A DNA stretch of 64,000 bases from Sipunculus nudus (lineage: Eukaryota > Annelida > Sipuncula > Golfingiida > Sipunculidae). Position numbers and translations under genes: made by a program. Location: positions 26,140,214 through 26,204,213 of the forward strand of contig CM049320.1 of assembly GCA_026874595.1 (NCBI GenBank). Direction: 5' to 3'. Below the pieces are notes generated by a model, which saw nothing but the letters and a program-made list of their open reading frames with translations, made no database searches and was not told the DNA's origin. The stretch's first letter is position 1; the number at the start of each line of letters is the position of its first letter. Below are positions 3,232-57,700 of this stretch, piece after piece.

Positions 3232-4136
3232 GGATTGGTCAATTGGTCTCAGGTTGGAGTCTCAGTTGAATTCTGAGTATATAATGCATGTGATCTTCAA
3301 TTTTCTCAGCACTTATCGATGTTGAAGATTTATTTATTGGCTGAAAATACACATGCTTTGCAAGACTATTCACATAACAGGGTATCAAAGAGGCAGAATT
3401 CAGGTGATACATTGGAAATGCATGCAAGTGATAGAGTAACGCACGATGTGAGGTTTGACTGCAGACAACGATAAACTGTTGTATACAACATCAGTGAAAT
3501 GTTTCAGGGTAAATCAAATAAACTAGTGACATGTGGTTTCGTCCTGTAATGGAGTATCCATTGTCATTAGATTGTTCCAGACCAAATGGCGTGGAATATC
3601 TCATGAAGAATTGTATCATTTATTAGCTTTGGGATTCTAAGATAGGAAAAATCACACCGCGAGCAATCACACTGTGAGCTATAGTTTAACCTATTTTTTT
3701 CTCTCTTAAGGTGTTAGTAGATGGATTTATTTACCATATAAAAAGACTCCATTTCTCGTGTTGGAATTTAATCGTAAGATATTGTTTTATTTTGTCCTGT
3801 TTCTCATGGTTTTATATTTTTTAACAAAATTTCAATACAAATATGTCACAGTTTAGCTATGCCGAGGCAATGGGCCCTGTTTGATGATAAAATTGTGGGG
3901 GAACAAACAACTGGACTACAGACAGAAGACATCCCCGAACCTCCCCCCCCCCCCCCCCCCATGTCCTGATGTGATCTTCTGCCACCATAAATTAAGCAAA
4001 TGTACTTTGATTAAAAAAATTAGTTTTTCTCACTTTTCAAGACTGTTTTTCATTATTTAAATTTGATTTAAACATTCACATTTACAAACATTTAATAGCA
4101 TTCTACGGATTAATCTTTATGGCGATTCAGCTGAGG
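1804..4136. other. Intergenic, no gene seen
   Basis: AT-rich unique-looking sequence. It holds a (CT)n stretch at 3187-3232 and a C run at about 3939-3960. No splice-bounded reading frame and no paired inverted termini were found. Confidence 0.5.
3187..3232. repeat. (CT)n microsatellite
   Basis: Near-perfect CT dinucleotides interrupted by two GT units. Confidence 0.9.
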
Positions 4137-4144
4137 CAACTGAC

Positions 4145-5505
4145 CAGAGTTGGGTCCAAAAGTAATTGTATTTGAAGTAACTGTAAATACAATTACTTTT
4201 GCAAGTAATTGTAATTGTAATCGATTACATTTTCCAATCCTTGAAAGTAATTGTTATTGTAATCGATTGATTTTGAAAAGTAATTGTTTGAACAGTTACT
4301 TTTTAATTACTTTTGGGTATTTTTGTCTTATATGAATAATTCCATCAAACTGTCAAATTTAATAAGCATACCTGGTTATTAACCAGTTTCCCATGGTTGT
4401 TCCTCATGTATATTTCAGAGGCATATATGCATTGTAAATAATATTTATATTTTCTCAGGCTACCAGTTTATTTTGACTGAATAAAAAAGTTCCCATCAAA
4501 CCTAGCCCAATGTAAAGGTTACTCCCGGTTATCTGAAATCACTTTCAAGTTATTTCTGGGGGTAGCCTGAACCCAATTTCAGGTTAACCCACACTGTTTC
4601 AAATTAACGTCTTTCTGATTAAATTAAATGATAAATTTTAATGCTTTTTACCAATGATATATTAGAGAAATAAACCCCATGGAAGACACAAAATCTAAAA
4701 GGTTGAATCAGTTTTATAAGAGTTGTCGCAAATTTTTAACAATGTTATAAAGTGTATTTTTATTTACTCGTAGCCTACACTTTGCCAAAGCGCATGACAA
4801 ATTACTTGCAAACAAAGGATATGCAAAGGTTCATATGAATATCATGTAATAAACATACAGAAACAGCTGTTTTGAAATGTCATGGTTTTTATCCGTTTAG
4901 TTGTAACCAAAAGCAGCATATATCCAAGTTTGTCTACATAATAATGTTAAACAAATTTTCTTTCCCTTCTTTTACCATATACCTTCATTGAAATGGCTCG
5001 GTTTATGTCCATGCATTTAGTGGTAACACAAAGCCAAATACACACGTTTGTGTCTTTATAATAATCTTTATTGATATGTTTTTTTTCCCCTTTTTTAAAC
5101 AAGCTTTATTGATATAACACAATCTGGGTCCATTTTGTGGCGACGATAAAATGTTAAATTTTAATATGACATTACCACTCAACAATGACTTTTTGTACAT
5201 ATTCTACTGCGATTCATGTTATAATATAGATTTGGTAGGTTGTGCCTTTATTAAATTTGTTACGACTGTTATAAATGTTAAGAGCTCAAACCAATCTCTA
5301 ACCCAGTTGCTGTTCGTGCATGAGGTGAATGGTCCTAAAACACAAAAGTAATTGCAAAAGTAATTGCGATTACTTTAAGAAGTAATTGTTGTTGTAATCG
5401 ATTACTTTTCTGAAAACACAAAAGTAATTGTAATTGTAATCAATTACTTTTGAAAGTAATTGTATTTGTAATCGATTACTTTAAAAGTAATTGGGCCCAA
5501 GTCTG
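4145..5505. mobile_element. Non-autonomous hAT-like transposon with intact 8-bp duplication
   Basis: A 1361-bp element flanked by a perfect 8-bp direct repeat CAACTGAC (4137-4144 and 5506-5513). The left end reads CAGAGTTGGGTCCAAAAGTA; the right end in reverse reads CAGACTTGGGCCCAATTACT. About 180 bp at each end is built from repeated AAAGTAATTG and TAATCGATTAC modules in both orientations, likely transposase-binding subterminal repeats. The interior is AT-rich with no transposase frame. The 8-bp duplication and CAG...CTG ends are hAT hallmarks (established); family name inferred. Confidence 0.9.
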
Positions 5506-6499: not shown

Positions 6500-7115
6500 C
6501 TTGTACAGCTTCTTGACAAACGTTTCCCTCCTGACCACAGTTTACACAAAATCCTGAACCGTAACACCGTAAAAATCAGCTATAGCTGCATGCCTAACAT
6601 GAAGCAGGTCATTATAGCACACAACAAAGGACGACTTAACAATGAGAGAATTAAAGAAAAGAAAACAGAGAGCATATGCAAAAACTGCAACTGTAGAAAC
6701 CCGAAAGAATGCCCAATCAAAGAAGGATGCCTTACTCAAAGCATAATTTACCAGGCCACAGTTACCAGACAAGATAACTAACAAGTGGAAACATATATCG
6801 GACTGACAGAAAACGCATTTAAAACGAGATACTATGGACACATCAGTAGTTTCAGGAATGAAAAATACAGAAATAGCAAAACACTAAGCCAGTACGTGTG
6901 AACCCTGAAAGAAAAAAAAACATACCCTATTCGGTCAAATGGAAAATCATGGCTAAATGCAGAGCTTATCCCAACACGTCCAAAAAATGTAATTTATGCA
7001 CCACCGAGAAATACTACATAATTTGCCGACCTGATCTGAGTTCACTAAACAATAGGAACGAGCTGACAACATCATGCAAACATATAACTAAATACCTCCT
7101 TTGTAACCTTAAATA
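6500..7115 (+). mobile_element. Penelope-like element fragment, 3' end with GIY-YIG domain
   Basis: Conceptual translation from 6500 gives LVQLLDKRFPP, then KISYSCMPNM, a Cys-rich block (CKNCNCRNPKECP), TYIGLTENAFKTRYYGH, and KKCNLCTTEKYYI with a final NRNELTTSCKH. This is the linker plus GIY-YIG endonuclease arrangement of Penelope-like retroelements; the YIG, the Arg/His of RYYGH and the Cys-x-x-Cys are visible. The reading frame is broken at a few points, so the copy is dead. The reverse transcriptase upstream is missing or unrecognisable. A hammerhead ribozyme follows at 7425. Confidence 0.8.
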
Positions 7116-7424
7116 ATTTTAAGCCGATAATAAAGTTAAATATGCAGTCTCAAGATCCCAGCCAATGTATGCAGGAACAACCAACTGGACTACTAATCCA
7201 CTGATCCCCTGACCGAACCAACACCTGGGGTCTTGATCAACTTTAAGCAATCCAACAAATCCTCGAGCGCTTCATAATAGCCCTAATACAATACAATAAG
7301 CCAGGCACCCAGTAACCCTTATTCACCAACAAAACAAAACCTTTAAATACATGCCTCACCGAACCTAGTAACCCCAGATAAATCCTACCTATTACGACAA
7401 ACTTCACCCAATATCTGATCACTC

Positions 7425-7492
7425 CAGTTTGTACCTGAAGAGTGAGCCGGCTTGAATGCTGCTCTCACGAAACAGATCTGTAGCACAAACTG
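7425..7492 (+). ncRNA. Type I hammerhead ribozyme, Penelope-associated
   Basis: All core elements are present in order. Helix I 5' strand is CAGTTTGT (7425-7432). The core CTGAAGA (7435-7441) fits CUGANGA. Helix II is GTGAG (7442-7446) pairing perfectly with CTCAC (7464-7468). GAAA lies at 7469-7472, helix III is CAGATCTG (7473-7480), the UH site is TA (7481-7482), and the helix I 3' strand ACAAACTG (7485-7492) pairs perfectly with the first. Self-cleavage is expected after 7482. Helix III is a self-complementary 8-mer with almost no loop, the form known to work as dimers. Hammerheads are established in Penelope-like elements; assignment to the remnant ending about 310 bp upstream is inference. 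Confidence 0.87.
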
Positions 7493-7591
7493 ATGAAGTC
7501 AAACTAACCGTACTTTAGTTATTTATAAACGCTCCCATACGGTAGAGCACTATCACCGCGATGAATTGATTTCACGCTATGTGAACAATAC

Positions 7592-7594
<3 letters not shown>

Positions 7595-7633
<39 letters not shown>
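7595..7633. repeat. (TA)n microsatellite
   Basis: About 19 uninterrupted AT units. Confidence 0.9.
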
Positions 7634-7637
<4 letters not shown>

Positions 7638-37439: not shown

Positions 37440-40400
37440 TTATCAAAATCAAGACTTTCAAAAACTAATTAAAAATTATGATTTATTATTTTAACTGAGA
37501 CTTGGGCAAATCATGCTGATCAGTATTTAAATGATCTCTGCGGATATCATGGGTATTCTAATGTATGGTCTCAAATGAAATGTGGAGGAGTGCTTTTTTA
37601 CTTAAGAAATGCATTACTAAAATATGTCAAACAAGTTATAACTACTTACAGAGATATAATTATTGTTATTATGGATGGTCTAAAGCTGTTTTTTTAAAGA
37701 TATTGCAATAGTCGCTGTATATACATTGCTCCAGGAAACTCTGTATTTTATAATCATGTGGAAGAAAAAAATGGTATAACATTCTTAGAAAATGTGTTAG
37801 TAGAACTTCTGACAAGATATGATGATGTAAATTTTATTATTTTTGGGGATCTAAATGCTAGAATGGGTAACTTGAAGGACTATCTAGAAGATGACAATTT
37901 ATATTATATTGATGTTGATACATACAACAGTGATTGATTCAGTTTGCCTAGAAAATCGAGAGATAAGACAGATAAATAAATGGGGATTTGCATTGCATCA
38001 GTTATGTATAAGTTTAAATGTAAATATTTTGAATGGTAGAATTCAGCCAGATTACCATGGAAACTGAACTTACATGTCAGCACAAGGCACCTCTTTAATA
38101 GATTATATTATTGTAAGTTCAGAAATTTTTCATAAATTTAAGATGTTTGAAGTTTTAAATGAAGATCTGTCAGACCACTTTCTTGTAATAACTAAATTCG
38201 AAATTGGAACTAAAGTAAATTTGGATGGAAATATTGATAAATACGAAAACTGGATCCAGTACAGGAAAAAAAGGCTTGTGTATATGATGTCTTTAGTGAC
38301 AATGGGGTAACTAATAAAATAGTTAATTTAGAATACACTTTAATGACTGACATAGAAAGTAGAGCAGTACAGTTAAGAAACTTAATTCTCTATATAACAG
38401 AAAAAAAAAAAAACATTTGTCAAAATTGAGAAAGTGCATATTAAGAAGACATCTCAAACAGAATGGTGGAATATGTCATGTAGTAATTTAAAAAAGAAAA
38501 AGTATAAAGCTTTAAACAAATTTAGGTGTACAAATAATGATAATGATTTTATTGCATATAAACAAATGAAAGATAAAATTCAAGACAGAATGCAAAAGAT
38601 CTCAAATAGAGACAGTAAAAGGTAAAATTGAACAAATAACTTCTGTTCTACAACCAAGAAATTTTAGAAAAATTAAAACTCACAAAAGAAAGCAAGTTAA
38701 AAATAATATAACAGGGGAAGATTGGATAAAATTTTTGCACAAACCTTTAACAGATAATGCAATTAATATAAATGTTAATTATGTGAATGAGATTAATACA
38801 TATGAATATTGTGAACCAGTGGATATAAACTCCTATGACGTGGAAGTAAATTATGAAATAAGTCAAACTGATATATTTAGACAAATATCTAGGCTACAAA
38901 ATGGAAAAACACCTGGACCTGATGGCATCTCTGTGGAACTGTTAAAAGAAAATTAAGTCATTCTATTACCACTTTTAGAAACATTATTCAATCAAATTTT
39001 TGTGTGTGGGCAGTTTCCTACTGAATGGTCCAGAGCAATTTTATTCCCTTTATATAAGAATGGAAGTATAAATGATCCAAATAACTACAGAGGCATAGCT
39101 CTTTTAAATACAATTGTAAAATTATTTACCAAAATTTAAAATGAAAGATTATTATTGTGGGCTAAAAAAATCATAATAGATTTTATAGGAAAAAGCAGGT
39201 TATAGAAGAAATTATAGTACAGTTGATAATATGTTCACCCTAATGACATTAACTGAATCCTATTTATCAAAGAAAAAAGGCAGATTATATGCAATATTCA
39301 TTGACTTTTCCAAAGCTTTTGACGGTATACAACATCAGTTATTATTTCATATTCTTTATAAAATAGGGATTAGAGGGAAAATATACAATATCTTGAAATC
39401 CATGTATTCCAAATTAAAATCTTGTGTATTAACTGAAAAAGGTTTAACTGATTACTTTTCATGCACTGTAGGAACAAGGCAGGGCTGTATGATAAGTCCT
39501 TTATTGTTTACATTCTTTATGAATGAATTGTACTTTACACTGCATTCAGAAAGAGAAGGTATATATATTAGTCCAGAGGTAAAACCACTCTCCATGCTTA
39601 TGTTTGCAGATGACGTTGTATGTTTCGCTGATACAGTTGGTCGAATACAAACCCAAATCAACAAATTAGAATTTTTTGTGATTATATGGAATGAAAGTTA
39701 ATACGGACAAAACAAAAATAGTAGTATTCAGAAATGGTGGCGTTCTAAAAAGATGTGAAAATGGTACTATAAAGGAAAACAAGTTGAAATGGTTAGTAGT
39801 TATAAATATTTAGGGGGAATTTTTACAAGTTTTCTTAAATGGTCAAGAATGAAACAACATTTAGCAAATCAAGCCAATAAGGCTGTCATAATGATTAAAA
39901 ACAATTATTAGTAATATGTAAATATTTAACAGTGGATCAGTCCTTTTTTCTTTTTGACAGAATGGTGCTACCAATTTTATGTTATGGCAGTGAATTATGG
40001 GGCCATGATAACTTTGACACAATTGAATCAGTTCAGAACAAATTTTGCAAATACATTCTTAAAATCAATTCTTCATCGCCAACTGCTGCTGCACTTGGTG
40101 GATGTGGACAATGGCCTTTGAAAATTCATAAAGAATTCCGATGCATTAAGTGTTGGACTAAAATATTACGTATGACACCAAATAGGTATCCTAAACAGTT
40201 ATACGGTAAATTGTGTCACCTTGATGAACTGGGAAGGAAAACTTTGGCTACGAAAGTTAAAAATTTATCATTTATATTAGGTTTTGGTTACACTTGGATA
40301 TTGCAGGATTTAGGGGATACACAATTGTTTTTGTCAGAGCTACTCCAAAGATTAAAAGATATTTATTTGCAAGAATGGTCGAATAACATTTCAAATAATA

Positions 40401-41117
40401 AACGTTTAGAATCATACTCCGTGCTTAAATCACTCTTAACCAGGGAAATGTATTTAAATGTTGTGAAAAGTAATAATCATAAAACCAGTTTAGCTAGATT
40501 AAGATCACACAATTTGCAAATTGAAAAAGGAAGACATGATAAGATACACTGGACTGAGAGAAATTGTACCTATTGTTTAAAACATGGTGAAAATTTAGTT
40601 GAAACTGAATATCATTTCATAATGAAGTGTCCATTATATAATGATATCAGAGACCATTTTCTTTTAAAATTAGGTTAATTTTCTTTTTTAATTTTTCACT
40701 TATGTCAAATTAAAATCCTTCTGTCATTAATAATCTAGCAGCTTTTGTATATTATGCTTTCAAAAGAAGAAATGATCAGGTATAAGTCAATATTAAGGTA
40801 TTTAAAATGGTTCTTATTTAATATTGATGTTAATTTTACTGAAACCTATTTGGAAAAGGATTTATCATTTATAAAAATCGGAGCACTGAAATGTTAATTG
40901 CATAGAAATACATCTGTATATGAATTGTATACCATAGAAATTACCTCTTTGTGAAAAATATGTTGATATTATTGAATGCATGTACTTATAGTTTTATTTG
41001 TTAATATGTGTGTTTTTTTATATTTATCACCCATTGATATTGTATTATGCATGCACTTATGGAAAAATGGGCCTGAGGCCTTATATTTTCTGAATAAAAT
41101 ATTCATTCATTCATTCA
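37440..41117 (+). mobile_element. Degraded LINE (non-LTR retrotransposon), CR1/L2-like
   Basis: Parts in order: an AP-endonuclease with FIILTETWANHADQYLND at about 37476, GDLNARMG near 37848, SLIDYIIVSSEIF and LSDHFLV near 38090-38190; an RT entry segment QNGKTPGPDGISVELLKEN; RT fingers/palm IFIDFSKAFDGIQ, GTRQGCMISPLLFTFFMN and the catalytic FADD (39603-39614); then a 248-codon C-terminal frame (39932-40678) ending in a CxxC-type knuckle, CTYCLKHG...HFIMKCPLYNDIR. The 3' tail has TGAATAAAATATTC followed by (ATTC)n at 41099-41116. At least four frame breaks or stops interrupt the ORF, so it is inactive. The clade is judged by eye only. Confidence 0.9.
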
Positions 41118-51706: not shown

Positions 51707-54700
51707 GCATGCATAGACAGGCGAATATACATAAAAACAGATAATCAGAGATAAGCGAAAATTTTCCTCTTAACCCTAATATGGGTAAGAAATGTGAATA
51801 TATATATATATATCTTTACTCTCTGCCTGGATTTGATAACGACACCGCATGGTTGTTTCAGGGTGTAACGTAGAAAATGCATCATACGGACTTTCTGTCT
51901 GTGCTGAGAGGGTTGCCATCATGACGGCTGTGTCACGTGGCTACAGAAAGTTCAAGGCCTTAGCTGTGTGCTGGTAATTATTTTGTGTATTATTACATTT
52001 TCAAAACAAACCTAGAATGACTGAAAACCCATTAAACGTAAAATTACCGGTATTCACATTATTCTTCCGCCATTTCTGTTTTTTTATGAAACGATATTAT
52101 ACATCAGTTAATTATGTTTGTCCAGCGCACATACATAATAAATTTATACATTCAATTATACACACAAATATATCATTTATACCTGGATAATTCCATTCCG
52201 GTTTCGGACTAGGTGACAGGGCAGTATCACACGCTTCCTCTCATTTTATATCCTGGTGTAAACTGGCACGTGTGACTTCAGCACCTGTGAGTGAAACACG
52301 TTCATAAGGCACGGCCAGCCCATGAAGCCTGAAGAGCGCTCAACCTGGGTGGGGGCCTACCGTGAAAAATTTGAACCATACTTAGTTCAGCTATCATTAA
52401 AAATGGAGGCGGTTACTAAAATCAAAAGAAAATCAATATAATTAATTTAATATAAATTGGTTTAAAATTGGTATAAAATAAATATAAAATTATTTGAATA
52501 AACCTAATAAATTTGAAAGTTCAAGGAAAATATTTCATTACCTCTGATTCATTCTTTTAATGTACAAGCAATATACCAATAATTTCTACATGCGATCTAT
52601 GACATCCGAGTTTTAGTGTGTACGCAAAATGGCAGTTCCTATGAGCGGTTTCGAGAAACTTGGAGAAATAAACCGGTCATTGTTCGATAAATGCGTGCGG
52701 ATGCGACACGAAATAACTCCGATGACATGAGAGTTTGTGGCAAGAGGACGTACCCGCGCTACGCGTGTCGGCAAGGTTTAGAGTGGAATAATTCTGTTTA
52801 TAAACTCGTGTATATATATGTAGGTGATATTTATATACACAAATCTGACGGCTAGGAATCTGTTCTTATTAAGGTTATATAAAATTACTACTTTTGATTT
52901 ATAACTATTTCAATTCCTACGGATAGTCCATTTGTGACATAATCAACTGTACATGTATTTACCGTATCTTACCTAATAAGCGCCCTAGGTGATTCAACTC
53001 ATTGAGAGTTCGACATTTCCAATAAACGTGGAGCATCCCCTTCCCTTTTATCAATAGCCGATCCAAATACTATGGTTGATTTAATATTCGCGAGGTTAAA
53101 TCAACAGGAATTTATTTTATCAATGTTTCACGAGGATTTCATTCTTGCATTTCTTATTTCATTTCAAACTTATTTCAATTGTGAAGAGGAGCAAGCAAAT
53201 TGTGTTAAGATGTGTTTCCATGTGCGCTAGTAGGCGTATGTGCGAATATGCGTGAAAATATAGGCGTGTTTCCATGTGCGCGTATATGCGTATATGCGTG
53301 AACTGGCAGACTAATATATAAGTACAGTGGATAGAGCAGGCCTTCTACAAAAGGTGCTGAAGTGACGTCATTTTACCCTGAATCCTTAACTGAGTTCACG
53401 CAGACCCTATGCGTGAAAATCGCTCCTCTGGTGATTTGCACACATATACGCATATACGCTGACGTACACATGAAAACACCCCAGTTACAAAATCATATGA
53501 AGTATACGCATATACGTGCATATGGAAGCATCCCTTGTTAGCGAACCTGTGAGCTTATGCGATGGTGCGGCGTCGTGCGTCGTGCGTCGTCTGTACGTTA
53601 ACCATAGCTATCTCCAAAACGGAGAAGCTAGCATCACCAATTTTTTTGCAGTCATCTGAAAAACTCTATCGGATTTTGTTTATTTTTCTTAGTTTTTATA
53701 GGGAAAAACTGTCCAGCCAAATTGTCCAATATTTCACAGAAATGATCCCTGGAACAATCTTTCTCAAGTTTGTTCGAATGGTTCCAGTTGGGAGATTTTT
53801 GGCCGAGTTACAGGAGGTTGAACTTAGTCATCTGTCCAAAAAAGCACACTAAAATTGAAATCTCAGAAAAGGCTAGAGCTATAATCACAAACTTTTATAC
53901 CAATGTTTGTCACATATGTCATATCTGTAATTGAGGTATTGGTGGCGCCACCTACATTGATGTGTTTTTGTACAAGCGAAAATGTAATTTTAAACTCTTC
54001 TAGCTTATACACTGATTTATGATGAATCTGTTAAGCTGATCGGGTTTAAACTTTACAAGAATTATTTTATGGTAGGGTTATGCCAGTTTTATAAGAATAA
54101 ATTGGGTAAATACAGCTTTAAAAAAGCATTGTAGCCAACTGAAAAAGGCTTTCTGTGTTTGAAAACAAATTTGACAACATGCTGAGTTTCAGCAGCCAAG
54201 TCAAGAGGTCACTCATTACAAACAGGTGGGGTCCAGACATCACCATGGCAACTGAACTGGCTCTGGCGGGTGTATAGACAATGTGTCTAGACGTCTAGAC
54301 ACAGTTTCTAGATGCAGAATTCCCAGATTATTGGAACTATATCTTTCAACTGTTTGAAAAAACTTGGTTTGCATTTTAAGCGAATCGGGTTTATCATCAG
54401 GCCACATGTGAACTGCTGCGCCCTCATTTTTGGTTGACCTCTGACCTTTTCTCGCTGCTCAGCGTCCATTTGTGCGTCTGTTTCCACACATAAACCCACA
54501 TATCTCGGGAACCGTTTGACCGATCAGGCTAAAAATTTTGCACAAATGTAGCCCTTTGATAGCTTTATAACATACAATAAAAATGGTGCCGCCACCCGCA
54601 ATCATTTTTGCACACGTCCATCTGTTCCTCTGCCTTGGGATAAAATCACTCATATCTCAGCAGTGGTTTGACTTTTCCACCTGAAATTTTGCAGGTTAAT

Positions 54701-57700
54701 ACATCCTGGGCAGCTTTCTCGATATTATGACAGGTGGCGCCACCTACATTTACGTTTACGCTGCAGACATCCAAGCTAATATTTCGGGAATCATTTGACC
54801 GATTGAGCCAAAATTTTGCTTGTGTATAGATCTCAAATAGCTCTTCATCATAGGCAAAACTGGTGGCACCACCTGCAACCACTTATGCACAGCGTCCATC
54901 TGTTCATCTGCCTTGGGATAAAATCACTCATATCTCAGAAATGATTTGACTTATCCACCTGAAACTTTACAGGTTTATACTTCCTGGACAATTTTCTCGA
55001 TTTTATGACAGGTGGCGCCACCTACATTCACGTTAACGTTGCAGACATCCAAGCTCATATATTGGGAACCGTTTGACCGATTGGGCCAAAATTTTGCTTG
55101 TGTATAGAACTCAAATAGCTCTTCATCATAGGCAAAACTGGTGGCGCCACCTGCAACCACTTATTCACAGCGTCCATCTGTTCATCTGCCTTGGGATAAA
55201 ATCATTCATATCTCAGAAGTGGTTTGACTTATCCACCTGAAACTTTCCAGGTTTATACTTCCTGGACAATTTTCTCGATTTTATGACAGGTGGTGCCACC
55301 TACATTCACGTTAACGCTGCAGACATCCAAGCTCATATTTTGGGAACCGTTTGACCGATTGGGCCAAAATTTTGCTTGTGTATAGAACTCAAATAGCTCT
55401 TCATCATAAGCAAAACTGGTGGCGCCACCTGCAACCACTTATTCACAGCGTCCATCTGTTCATCTGCCTTGGGATTAAATCATTCATAATTAAGAAGTGG
55501 TTTGACTTATCCACCTGAAACTTTCCAGGTTTATACTTCCTTGACAATTTTCTCGATTTTATGACAGGTGGCGCCACCTACATTCACGTTTACGCTGCAG
55601 ACATCCAAGCTCATATTTCGGTAACCGTTTGACCGATTGAGCCAAAATTTTGCTTGTGTATAGATCTAAAATAGCTCTTCATCATAGGCAAAACTGGTGG
55701 CGCCACTTGCAACCACTTATGCACAGTGTCCATCTGTTCATCTGCCTTAGGATGAAATCACTCATATCTCAGCAATGGTTTGACTTATCCACCTGAAACG
55801 TTACAGGTTTATACATCCTGGACAATTTTCTCGATTTAATGACAGGTGGCGCCACCTACATTCACGTTTACGCTGCAGACATCCATGCTTATATGCAACA
55901 CACCTAACTCTATTCCCCTTTCCCCTATAATCCATGCCTCACTTCACCCATCCCACTCTGATTTCTGCGGATACACACATCGCTTGTCGACAACACATAT
56001 TCTAGTTTTAAAATTTCCTAGTCTGAAACTTGCAGGTCCGAAACGTCCATTTTGCTGAAATCATAATGACTAAGGTAGATATGCAGGACTTTAAAGGATC
56101 AGTATTAAATTTTAAAAATAAACCTCCATTCATACTCCCAAACTTTGCACAGGTTCGCATTAGGCCCGTAGGCCTTGTTTATATCCCTGACAGAATAAGA
56201 ATATTTTATTTGAAAAATATGACTTCCTTGATCTGCATACATACTTGTAATTGTTTATGATCGATTATGGGAAAATGTAAGTGACTTTATTATTAAATCA
56301 ATTATGAAAGAAAATGACCAATCATCTATATAATCAATCAATTTGCACACCACAAATGATATAAGCCATGCATCAATCATGTCTAGTTCATGATGCTTGC
56401 AAAGTTTAAACAATGGTATATAACTAAAGTAGAGCCTTGAATTTCCATATCTCGTTTTTTCTGAAAATTCATTTTTCTGAAATTTTGAGGAATTGAAATT
56501 TACCTCTGCCACTGTTAACCAAAAAGCAGAAATATTACATTCAGGAAATAAATTTTGCCATATTACCGAATGTGATTCAGAGGATGACTGGCTAAGTGGT
56601 GTTCACTGGGATGTTGTAACATCATTGAGTAGTTGCCTTGCTATTAATTTCAGTTTCATTTTCGTAAATGTTGTGTTTGGGTCATTTTTATCTCTGGATA
56701 TCATGGAAGATGTCTGGGTAAAGTCAGAATATAGGCCAAATAAACATACAGAATGTTATGAATACATGTACATCTGTTTGTAAGGTAAATATTAAAATAA
56801 TGTGATACCTATTGAATGTCGTCCAAATCTAACACAAGCCTTGTTTGTGTGGGGACCATCCAAAGGGTAACCAAAAAAAGACCCTCAAAATAAACATTTT
56901 TCTGACAGCTCATTCTCCAAATTACAAACAGAAAAAAGTCTTCCCCAAAAAAAAATCCCTTCACCCACAAAACCATATAACGACCTATTATAAATAAAAG
57001 TAGTTTTTGCTCAATTTCTAATCTCAATTATTCATATTTTAAATTTTGTTTAAAATTCAATAACGTTTAGGCAAACATATGGGACAATTCAGTTGACACA
57101 TGCATTATATTAATTTGATCTTTGATGATATGCATAATTGAAGTAATACTTAGGAAAACTCAAACTATAAACTGATTAACGGATTTATCATAAATATTAA
57201 ATAATGTGTTTTATTCCCTTTAAAGGTAATAGATCCATCGCTAAAAAGCGTGGGGGTAATGTGTCTTGCTTTTCAACTCGCTGACCCCGGAAACTTTTCT
57301 CCCGTGAAATTAAACAATTTATATTGATTTTTATTATCGGATAGATATATCGCCCATCCCCAAAATGCACCTTTTTGTATGTCAAAGGCAGCAAACATGC
57401 CGGTATATTTTGAAACTATTAACTATGGGCTTATATTATTTTTTTTCAGTGACATCAAAGGAAGCTTCAAGGCATCATGCGGTGCCTGTAGGCAATTTCT
57501 GGCTGAGGTGAGATAACTTGTTTGCAATATTAATATTCTATAAAAAAAATACTGTTTTTTACTTTTGACAGCGAGGGTTTTGAATTCGCTATTTTCACAA
57601 AAGGGCAGTTATCGCAAAAATAAAATCTTCGTATATAAAGTGCCCATATACAAAAGTGAATATATTTTATATTGTATTAACTTTTGCATTTCCAGAACGT

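Follow-up and report, generated by a model that had tools for sequence, protein, structure and literature searches.

Positions 7425-7492 (+) of the window, by which is meant the whole stretch of 64,000 nucleotides of Sipunculus nudus DNA analysed here, carry all the conserved positions of a type I hammerhead ribozyme, and comparison with other sequences confirms the segment as a genuine type I hammerhead motif for which self-cutting is predicted. The motif lies in the pseudo-LTR (pLTR) of a Penelope-like element (PLE), a membership that a first-pass annotation of this DNA had not recognised. Hammerheads in PLEs are already known; what is added here is a map of insertion junctions, which bears on what the ribozyme does for a PLE. 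With ~120 insertions mapped, the role of the ribozyme becomes a counting question, because the junctions record both the 5' ends of templates and the starts of reverse transcription; they point to uncleaved templates beginning at the ribozyme and to an asymmetry of the insertion's two sides. With a probability of about 0.85, a single explanation accounts for the observations: the motif is the hammerhead of the pLTR of an endonuclease-bearing PLE, including dimer cleavage and reverse transcription that starts at two sites.

The hammerhead motif and its host element

The features on which the argument depends are as follows, each with its basis.

6504..7116 (+), 3' end of a Penelope-like ORF (reverse transcriptase end/linker and GIY-YIG-like domain), a 5'-truncated remnant; blastn, translation of L032
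7117..7594 (+), 3' pseudo-LTR/UTR; comparison with L031
7419..7425 (+), initiator-like TCACTCC, A7421 being the probable RNA start; 5' ends of cDNA pieces, L052, L104
7425..7492 (+), putative type I hammerhead ribozyme; sequence, genomic copies, relatives, descriptor, covariation
7425..7432 (+), helix I 5' strand CAGTTTGT; eight pairs with ACAAACTG at 7485-7492, covaries
7435..7441 (+), core CUGANGA, as CTGAAGA; sequence
7442..7468 (+), helix II with inner helix and loop; sequence, covariation
7469..7472 (+), core GAAA; sequence
7472..7481 (+), helix III ACAGATCTGT, a perfect palindrome of 10 nt; sequence, pairs 4 and 5 covary in relatives
7482..7483 (+), predicted cleavage site, after A7482; H17 is A7482, C in 12 of 90 same-length copies
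7527 (+), candidate internal reverse-transcription start a, outer end of one piece in most head-to-head insertions; junctions
7594 (+), candidate internal reverse-transcription start b, outer end of the other piece and 3' end of the window copy; junctions
7595..7636 (no strand), (TA)n target microsatellite; sequence, A+T flanks of other copies

The first-pass annotation had described a complete core, and the sequence agrees: CUGANGA, GAAA and UH follow one another in order and helix I is open, as both the sequence and the descriptor indicate. (The hammerhead core consensus and the predicted cut position, 7482/7483, follow the general hammerhead literature.) Helix I has the eight pairs plus one that had been claimed, since the eight are followed, next to the core, by an A7433.C7484 mismatch and then by the pair C7434-G7483. 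The five perfect pairs of helix II are likewise present as an outer stem (GTGAG 7442-7446 with CTCAC 7464-7468), within which lies an inner stem (CGGC/GCTG, 7448-7451/7458-7461, with loop 7452-7457) that was absent from the annotation. Helix III is indeed self-complementary, but the statement that it is too tight for a monomer was a little strong, because a monomer form with three pairs around a GAUC loop can be drawn. The best predicted monomer fold is not a hammerhead (-20.1 kcal/mol, vs -16.9 kcal/mol for the hammerhead); when two strands are folded together, a 10-bp intermolecular helix III is predicted (-51.6 kcal/mol for both).

A strict descriptor of the motif matched a single place on both strands of the 64-kb window, 7425-7492, and nothing in 150 dinucleotide-shuffled windows, in keeping with the annotation's judgement that a chance origin is very unlikely. 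A looser descriptor gave 9 matches in the 150 shuffles, and in the window it matched 7425-7492 alone, twice, with different 3' arms. The window motif was missed by a descriptor that permits no mismatch in helix I, because it has one there. A search of the window against Rfam yielded no family at threshold and no hammerhead model even at an E-value of 10; this covariance-model check had been named beforehand as one that could refute the motif, and it went against the annotation. We read the missing match as a gap of the public models for short-helix-III forms, because 244 near-identical core modules and covarying relatives exist despite it.

We take the host element to be Penelope-like, with GIY-YIG-like C-terminal motifs, because of its reverse transcriptase and C-terminal motifs, its homologues and telomerase-like fold, its pLTRs and its head-to-head copies. 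The blastn matches of the window copy to L031, L032, L033, L034 and L035 all begin at 6504, and in the frame of L032 a stop codon, TAA, can be seen by eye at 7114-7116. The window copy (6504-7594) is 5'-truncated, with most of the ORF absent, and adjoins (TA)n; the hammerhead is continuous with PLE ORF sequence here and in L031-L036. In L031 a pLTR stands both before and after the ORF: 7242-7599 of the window is repeated upstream of the ORF (3334-3692), and two hammerhead matches lie 3,324 bases apart. Copies of the element have a common 3' end, a variable 5' end and, in many cases, an inverted piece in front. The PLE features of pLTRs, tandem or inverted head-to-head copies, 5' truncation and a tail are all present.

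Translations of the longer copies contain the reverse transcriptase motifs GFDICEFYPSI and YRDDGL and a C-terminal IIY...YIG stretch. Among 7,995 candidates scored, 4,502 proteins are homologues at E <= 0.001, and 32 long ones were aligned: YRDDGL and FYPSI are invariant, and so are key C-terminal residues (Y586, Y601, G603, R612, H616, E671) and the cysteines that precede these residues, 565, 567, 573 and 579. The fold modelled for the homologue P0001 (mean pLDDT 83.2) appears to be that of a telomerase-like reverse transcriptase, as is characteristic of PLEs: telomerases occupy ranks 1 and 2 of the fold search, at low TM-scores of 0.30-0.36, with retrons, other reverse transcriptases and viral polymerases close behind. 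A Pfam search of the ORF pieces and of 6 homologues recognised no RVT and no GIY-YIG domain, and a PDB sequence search with the element protein gave no meaningful match.

Genomic copies, related hammerheads and covariation

The genome used for comparison was the 1.43-Gb S. nudus assembly that contains the window. A core module of 39 nt, allowing up to 3 mismatches, has 244 matches genome-wide; the same module read backwards, as a control, has 0. The window's form is the commonest one, since 40 of 94 fetched places are identical to it over 7425-7500. Among 90 copies of the same length the sole position that varies frequently is H17 (7482), which is A in 78, C in 12 and G in none. Within the window's own family, L031 carries a compensatory change of A-U to G-C in helix I (7426/7491). 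Four copies of a piece of the element lie ~6,420 bases apart at C12 8537884-8557283 (L028-L030, L037), two neighbouring units being 100% identical over the 3,382 bases compared; this array is evidently a recent segmental amplification.

A more general pattern, CTGATGAGN{10,30}CGAAACN{4,8}GTH, has 172+164 = 336 matches genome-wide, which fall into several families, vs 9+6 = 15 for the reversed pattern. Twenty relatives were fetched with their flanks, and the printed pairs, judged by eye, indicate that helix I is also paired beside the core in 14 of them, beginning with the first pair in 12 and after one mismatch in two (L129, L146); in the other six (L131, L133, L134, L141, L142, L147) helix I next to the core is hardly paired or not paired. 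The annotation had proposed covariation of helices I and II as a check, and relatives in the same genome do covary. In a structure-fitted alignment of 18 distinct rows, including two antisense self-matches (window, L034), 91.2% of the cells are paired, vs 77.2% when shuffled and 21.7-47.0% when slid, and 34 cells have changed on both sides, vs 7.7 in the shuffles. (The sources were 17 of the 20 fetched loci, to which the window, L034 and L124 were added; of the resulting 20 sources, 17 gave a match.)

Individual pairs were compared with 2000 shuffles, using 68 distinct strings from the 100 matches listed (of the 336) plus the window, with obvious chance strings kept. Pairs 2, 4 and 5 of helix II and pairs 3-5 of helix III exceed all 2000 shuffles, which overstate significance and give no true probability because the strings are related within families; helix II pair 3 has no clear excess (84 of 2000). 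For helix III pairs 4 and 5, scored on the 56 strings with a 10-nt helix III, 43 strings form each pair, vs 26.3 and 23.9 in the shuffles, none of the 2000 being as high. These two pairs cannot form in one molecule with a 4-nt loop and would need a dimer, and their covariation supports the dimer-style helix III of the annotation, though some relatives lack it: among the nearest kin (L129-L134) only L131 and L133 (2 of 6) have both inner pairs, and several relatives are without the full palindrome. The ten-mers of four groups are self-complementary (ACAGATCTGT, ACTACGTAGT, ACCTGCGGGT and ACTGATTAGT), two of them by way of a G-U pair. Taken together, these comparisons demonstrate, at the level of sequence, that helices I and II and, less strongly, the palindromic helix III have been kept through compensatory changes.

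At least three further groups of hammerheads, with helix III ACTACGTAGT, ACCTGCGGGT or ACTGATTAGT or near variants, are found in the genome (e.g. L135-L149). Each accounts for >15 of the 100 matches listed, and several of these matches, as in the window family, come in neighbouring minus-then-plus pairs; one group lies in a Penelope array on C3 with a spacing of ~2.4 kb. One of these groups belongs to a second Penelope family, which has an open frame of 718 codons from stop to stop, a protein 55% identical over 399 residues to that of the window's family, and a hammerhead in the same place before the ORF; counted from the sequence, 165 nt separate its hammerhead cut from the ATG, vs 153 nt in L031. 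The additional hammerhead families of the genome, of which at least one belongs to a PLE, are material for comparative work.

What the insertion junctions record

The junction map comprises 121 match clusters, 110 complete and 11 cut by the end of a stretch; three are ~20 nt long and perhaps due to chance, and three identical tandem copies from C12 were kept. A pattern for copies ending at 7527 has 160 matches; from the 100 listed, 90 were fetched, 3 were already included and 7, with two mismatches, were omitted. In 57 of the 66 two-ended insertions the outer 3' ends are 7527 and 7594, on opposite sides, and in the remaining 9 one of these positions is paired with another. No insertion among the 66 has the same outer end twice; the absence of 7594/7594 rests on the other locus sample, because the 7527-end pattern selects copies that end there, and in that sample of 12 two-ended loci 7 are 7527/7594, 3 pair 7594 with another position and 2 pair 7527 with another. 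(It should be noted that 7527 is uncertain by ~5 nt, because it adjoins (TA)n.) The target is A+T-rich: in 54 of the 57 insertions of the 7527/7594 type, A and T make up at least 14 of the 16 bases beside each end, and in 53 of the 57 the left flank has four TA or AT units.

The 5' ends of the pieces were counted in clusters made of one piece, or of one a-piece (ending at 7527) and one b-piece (ending at 7594), giving 71 a-pieces, 67 b-pieces and 50 pairs; L099, a likely duplicate of L057, was omitted. Within 7300-7509, 22 of 56 a-pieces have their 5' end at 7416-7432, vs 4.5 on a uniform expectation, which is crude; the corresponding figures for b-pieces are 9 of 48 and 2.9, and the 5' ends of unpartnered b-pieces say little because the query favoured long copies. 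L052 and L104 each have a piece that starts exactly at A7421, within TCACTCC, a sequence that resembles the general initiator (Inr) consensus. Of the 50 simple pairs, 13 have pieces whose ends lie no more than 6 nt apart, vs 4.6 on re-pairing (P 0.0002); these ends fall at 7421-7431 in six pairs, at 7483-7491, close to the ribozyme cut, in three, and at 7472-7479 and 7494-7499 in two each. In our reading, the 7421-7431 group results from reverse transcription running off the 5' end of the RNA, which would lie at the start of transcription. Snap-back through the arms of helix I was considered as the cause of the 7416-7432 cluster and rejected, since the partners that it predicts, at ~7485-7493, are rare: a- and b-pieces of this kind are confined to L057 (7418/7486; L099 is its likely duplicate) and L088 (7426/7485).

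The interval around the cut, 7480-7487, contains 4 of 56 a-ends (expectation 2.1, P 0.16) and 4 of 48 b-ends (expectation 1.4, P 0.048), an excess so small that cleavage leaves little or no trace. Pieces that stop exactly at G7483 occur in L027 and L092. The junction signal at the cut is striking in L027/L034 (one place, piece 7483-7527), and it is not claimed here because the enrichment across the sample is weak. Because template 5' ends are commoner at the probable start than at the cut, the junctions suggest that mostly uncleaved RNA served as the template for reverse transcription. Two loci contain additional hammerhead units: L108 (~130-370) has three of 69 nt, in which 7485 is joined to ~7417, and L021, on the reverse strand, has one extra unit, in which 7485 and two further bases are followed by ~7401. 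These units perhaps arose when reverse transcriptase jumped from the RNA 5' end to a point 3 nt past the ribozyme cut.

Proposed mechanism, known systems and rival readings

In the mechanism that we favour, transcription would start at about A7421, in the initiator-like sequence that shortly precedes helix I and to which the insertions point, and the ribozyme would therefore be the first structure of the RNA. Two ribozymes, carried by two RNAs or by the two pLTRs of a tandem transcript, would come together by pairing of the palindromic helix III, with cleavage after 7482, which would trim tandem transcripts to unit length or take off the leader. On the evidence of the junctions, the protein would nick both strands of the (TA)n tract, reverse transcription would have internal starts on the RNA, 7594 for one strand and 7527 for the other, and both cDNAs would run towards the RNA 5' end before being joined head to head. 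As a rule, the template seems to be RNA that has not been cleaved.

Cervera and de la Pena in 2014 and Lunse, Weinberg and Breaker in 2017 reportedly described PLE hammerhead variants and their dimeric cleavage. The motif resembles the published dimer-cleaving PLE hammerheads in being of type I, with a weak helix III, a place in a PLE pLTR and a dimer architecture, and it differs from the published PLE forms in two respects: the palindrome takes up all 10 nt of helix III, three pairs of which could also form in a monomer, and helix II continues beyond an internal loop into a second stem. According to passages of a 2020 review, PLE hammerheads are usually without non-conserved helix III nucleotides, and their role in PLEs is called a mystery (PMC7761336).

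The account of Poseidon of Anolis (PAc), as far as its relevant passages go, offers a close parallel: PAc is a PLE with a hammerhead at the pLTR/ORF side and an AT-rich target, it has two internal starts of reverse transcription (the 'tail'), and both strands are cleaved and extended (PMC11167929). The PAc hammerhead cut lies 26 bp inside the ORF, whereas in L031 it lies before the ORF (153 nt), and PAc showed no difference in start between the strands in vitro, whereas here there is one start on each side in 57 of 66 insertions (PMC11167929). The same passages report no reads starting or ending at the hammerhead cut of this lizard PLE (PMC11167929). Penelope families of Adineta vaga, in the portions of their description that bear on this, similarly have head-to-head inverted pLTRs with an optional tail on one and an Inr-like TCACT in the pLTR; the word hammerhead is absent from the main text, and a putative TATA box is named, whereas none is seen by eye here (PMC3846280). 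Metazoan retrozymes also have type I hammerheads, with dimeric action proposed for some; in contrast to them the present family bears an ORF, and its short-unit arrays occur only in L108 and L021 (PMC7229834, in part). Passages of the same paper mention atypical type I hammerheads in PLEs of mussels and other invertebrates (PMC7229834).

Could the motif then belong to a metazoan non-LTR retrozyme, i.e. a non-autonomous repeat of ~170-400 nt with circularised RNA, which has only the ribozyme in common with PLEs? Many insertions are short (~100-175 nt per piece), with little beyond the hammerhead, and retrozymes are known in mussels, as parts of PMC7229834 relate; but the hammerhead runs on into PLE ORF sequence in the window copy and L031-L036, the short pieces have the 3' ends and the A+T target of the long copies, and tandem hammerhead units among the mapped insertions are confined to L108 (three of 69 nt) and L021 (one extra), which makes this reading highly improbable. 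The tandem, ORF-less hammerhead units of ~150-400 bp that typify a retrozyme were not what the family displayed. A somewhat different possibility is that of an inherited relic that once cleaved and now has no function, its pattern persisting only through the youth of the copies. The window copy has indeed lost its 5' part and most of its ORF, templates seem for the most part to be uncleaved RNA, and mutants of the lizard PLE hammerhead were without effect on insertion in vitro, according to passages of PMC11167929. However, different PLE families of this genome keep the fold with different letters, whereas a decayed relic would show no compensatory change, and at H17 none of the 90 same-length copies has G, all having A or C there; we consider a relic improbable. 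As for a chance resemblance in repetitive DNA, the missing Rfam match is consistent with it, but the strict descriptor found 0 matches in 150 shuffled windows and the hammerhead pattern has 336 matches genome-wide vs 15 for its reverse; its probability is negligible, and in our view the covariation refutes it.

A further reading retains the paired ribozyme and makes linkage of the dimer its main function, with cleavage secondary, so that two templates reach the two cut strands. In its fullest form, uncleaved RNAs paired through helix III would come to (TA)n, the cut strands would prime at 7594 and 7527, and cleavage would act later or on tandem transcripts. In its favour, the helix III pairs that require a dimer tend to stay complementary, two overlapping cDNAs are often present in a head-to-head insertion, and the templates seem mostly uncleaved. 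In 6 of the 50 simple pairs both pieces extend to about the same 5' end, at 7421-7431, and a common end of this kind requires two templates or two passes. However, two passes over one RNA would suffice, the RNA dimers are putative, dimeric cleavage alone accounts for the palindrome, and several relatives lack the full palindrome. We consider this reading unlikely, in its general as in its fullest form; if it were true, dimer linkage with two fixed priming sites would yield asymmetric head-to-head insertions. The preferred reading remains that of a pLTR hammerhead that would cleave as a dimer.

Other repeats were seen in the window and beside one of the copies. Five copies of a tandem repeat, ~90% alike and with a spacing of 278 bases, occupy 54615-55894 of the window, and two ORF pieces at 39231-40678 resemble, by eye, a non-LTR reverse transcriptase. 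Beside the Penelope copy of L035, at 1211-2469, ORF pieces look by eye like the endonuclease and the next part of an L1-type element. Finally, 4183-5482 of the window holds two copies, 1,177 bases apart, of a repeat in which short inverted units (CAATTACTTTTG.AAGTAATTG) abound, which could be a small palindromic element.
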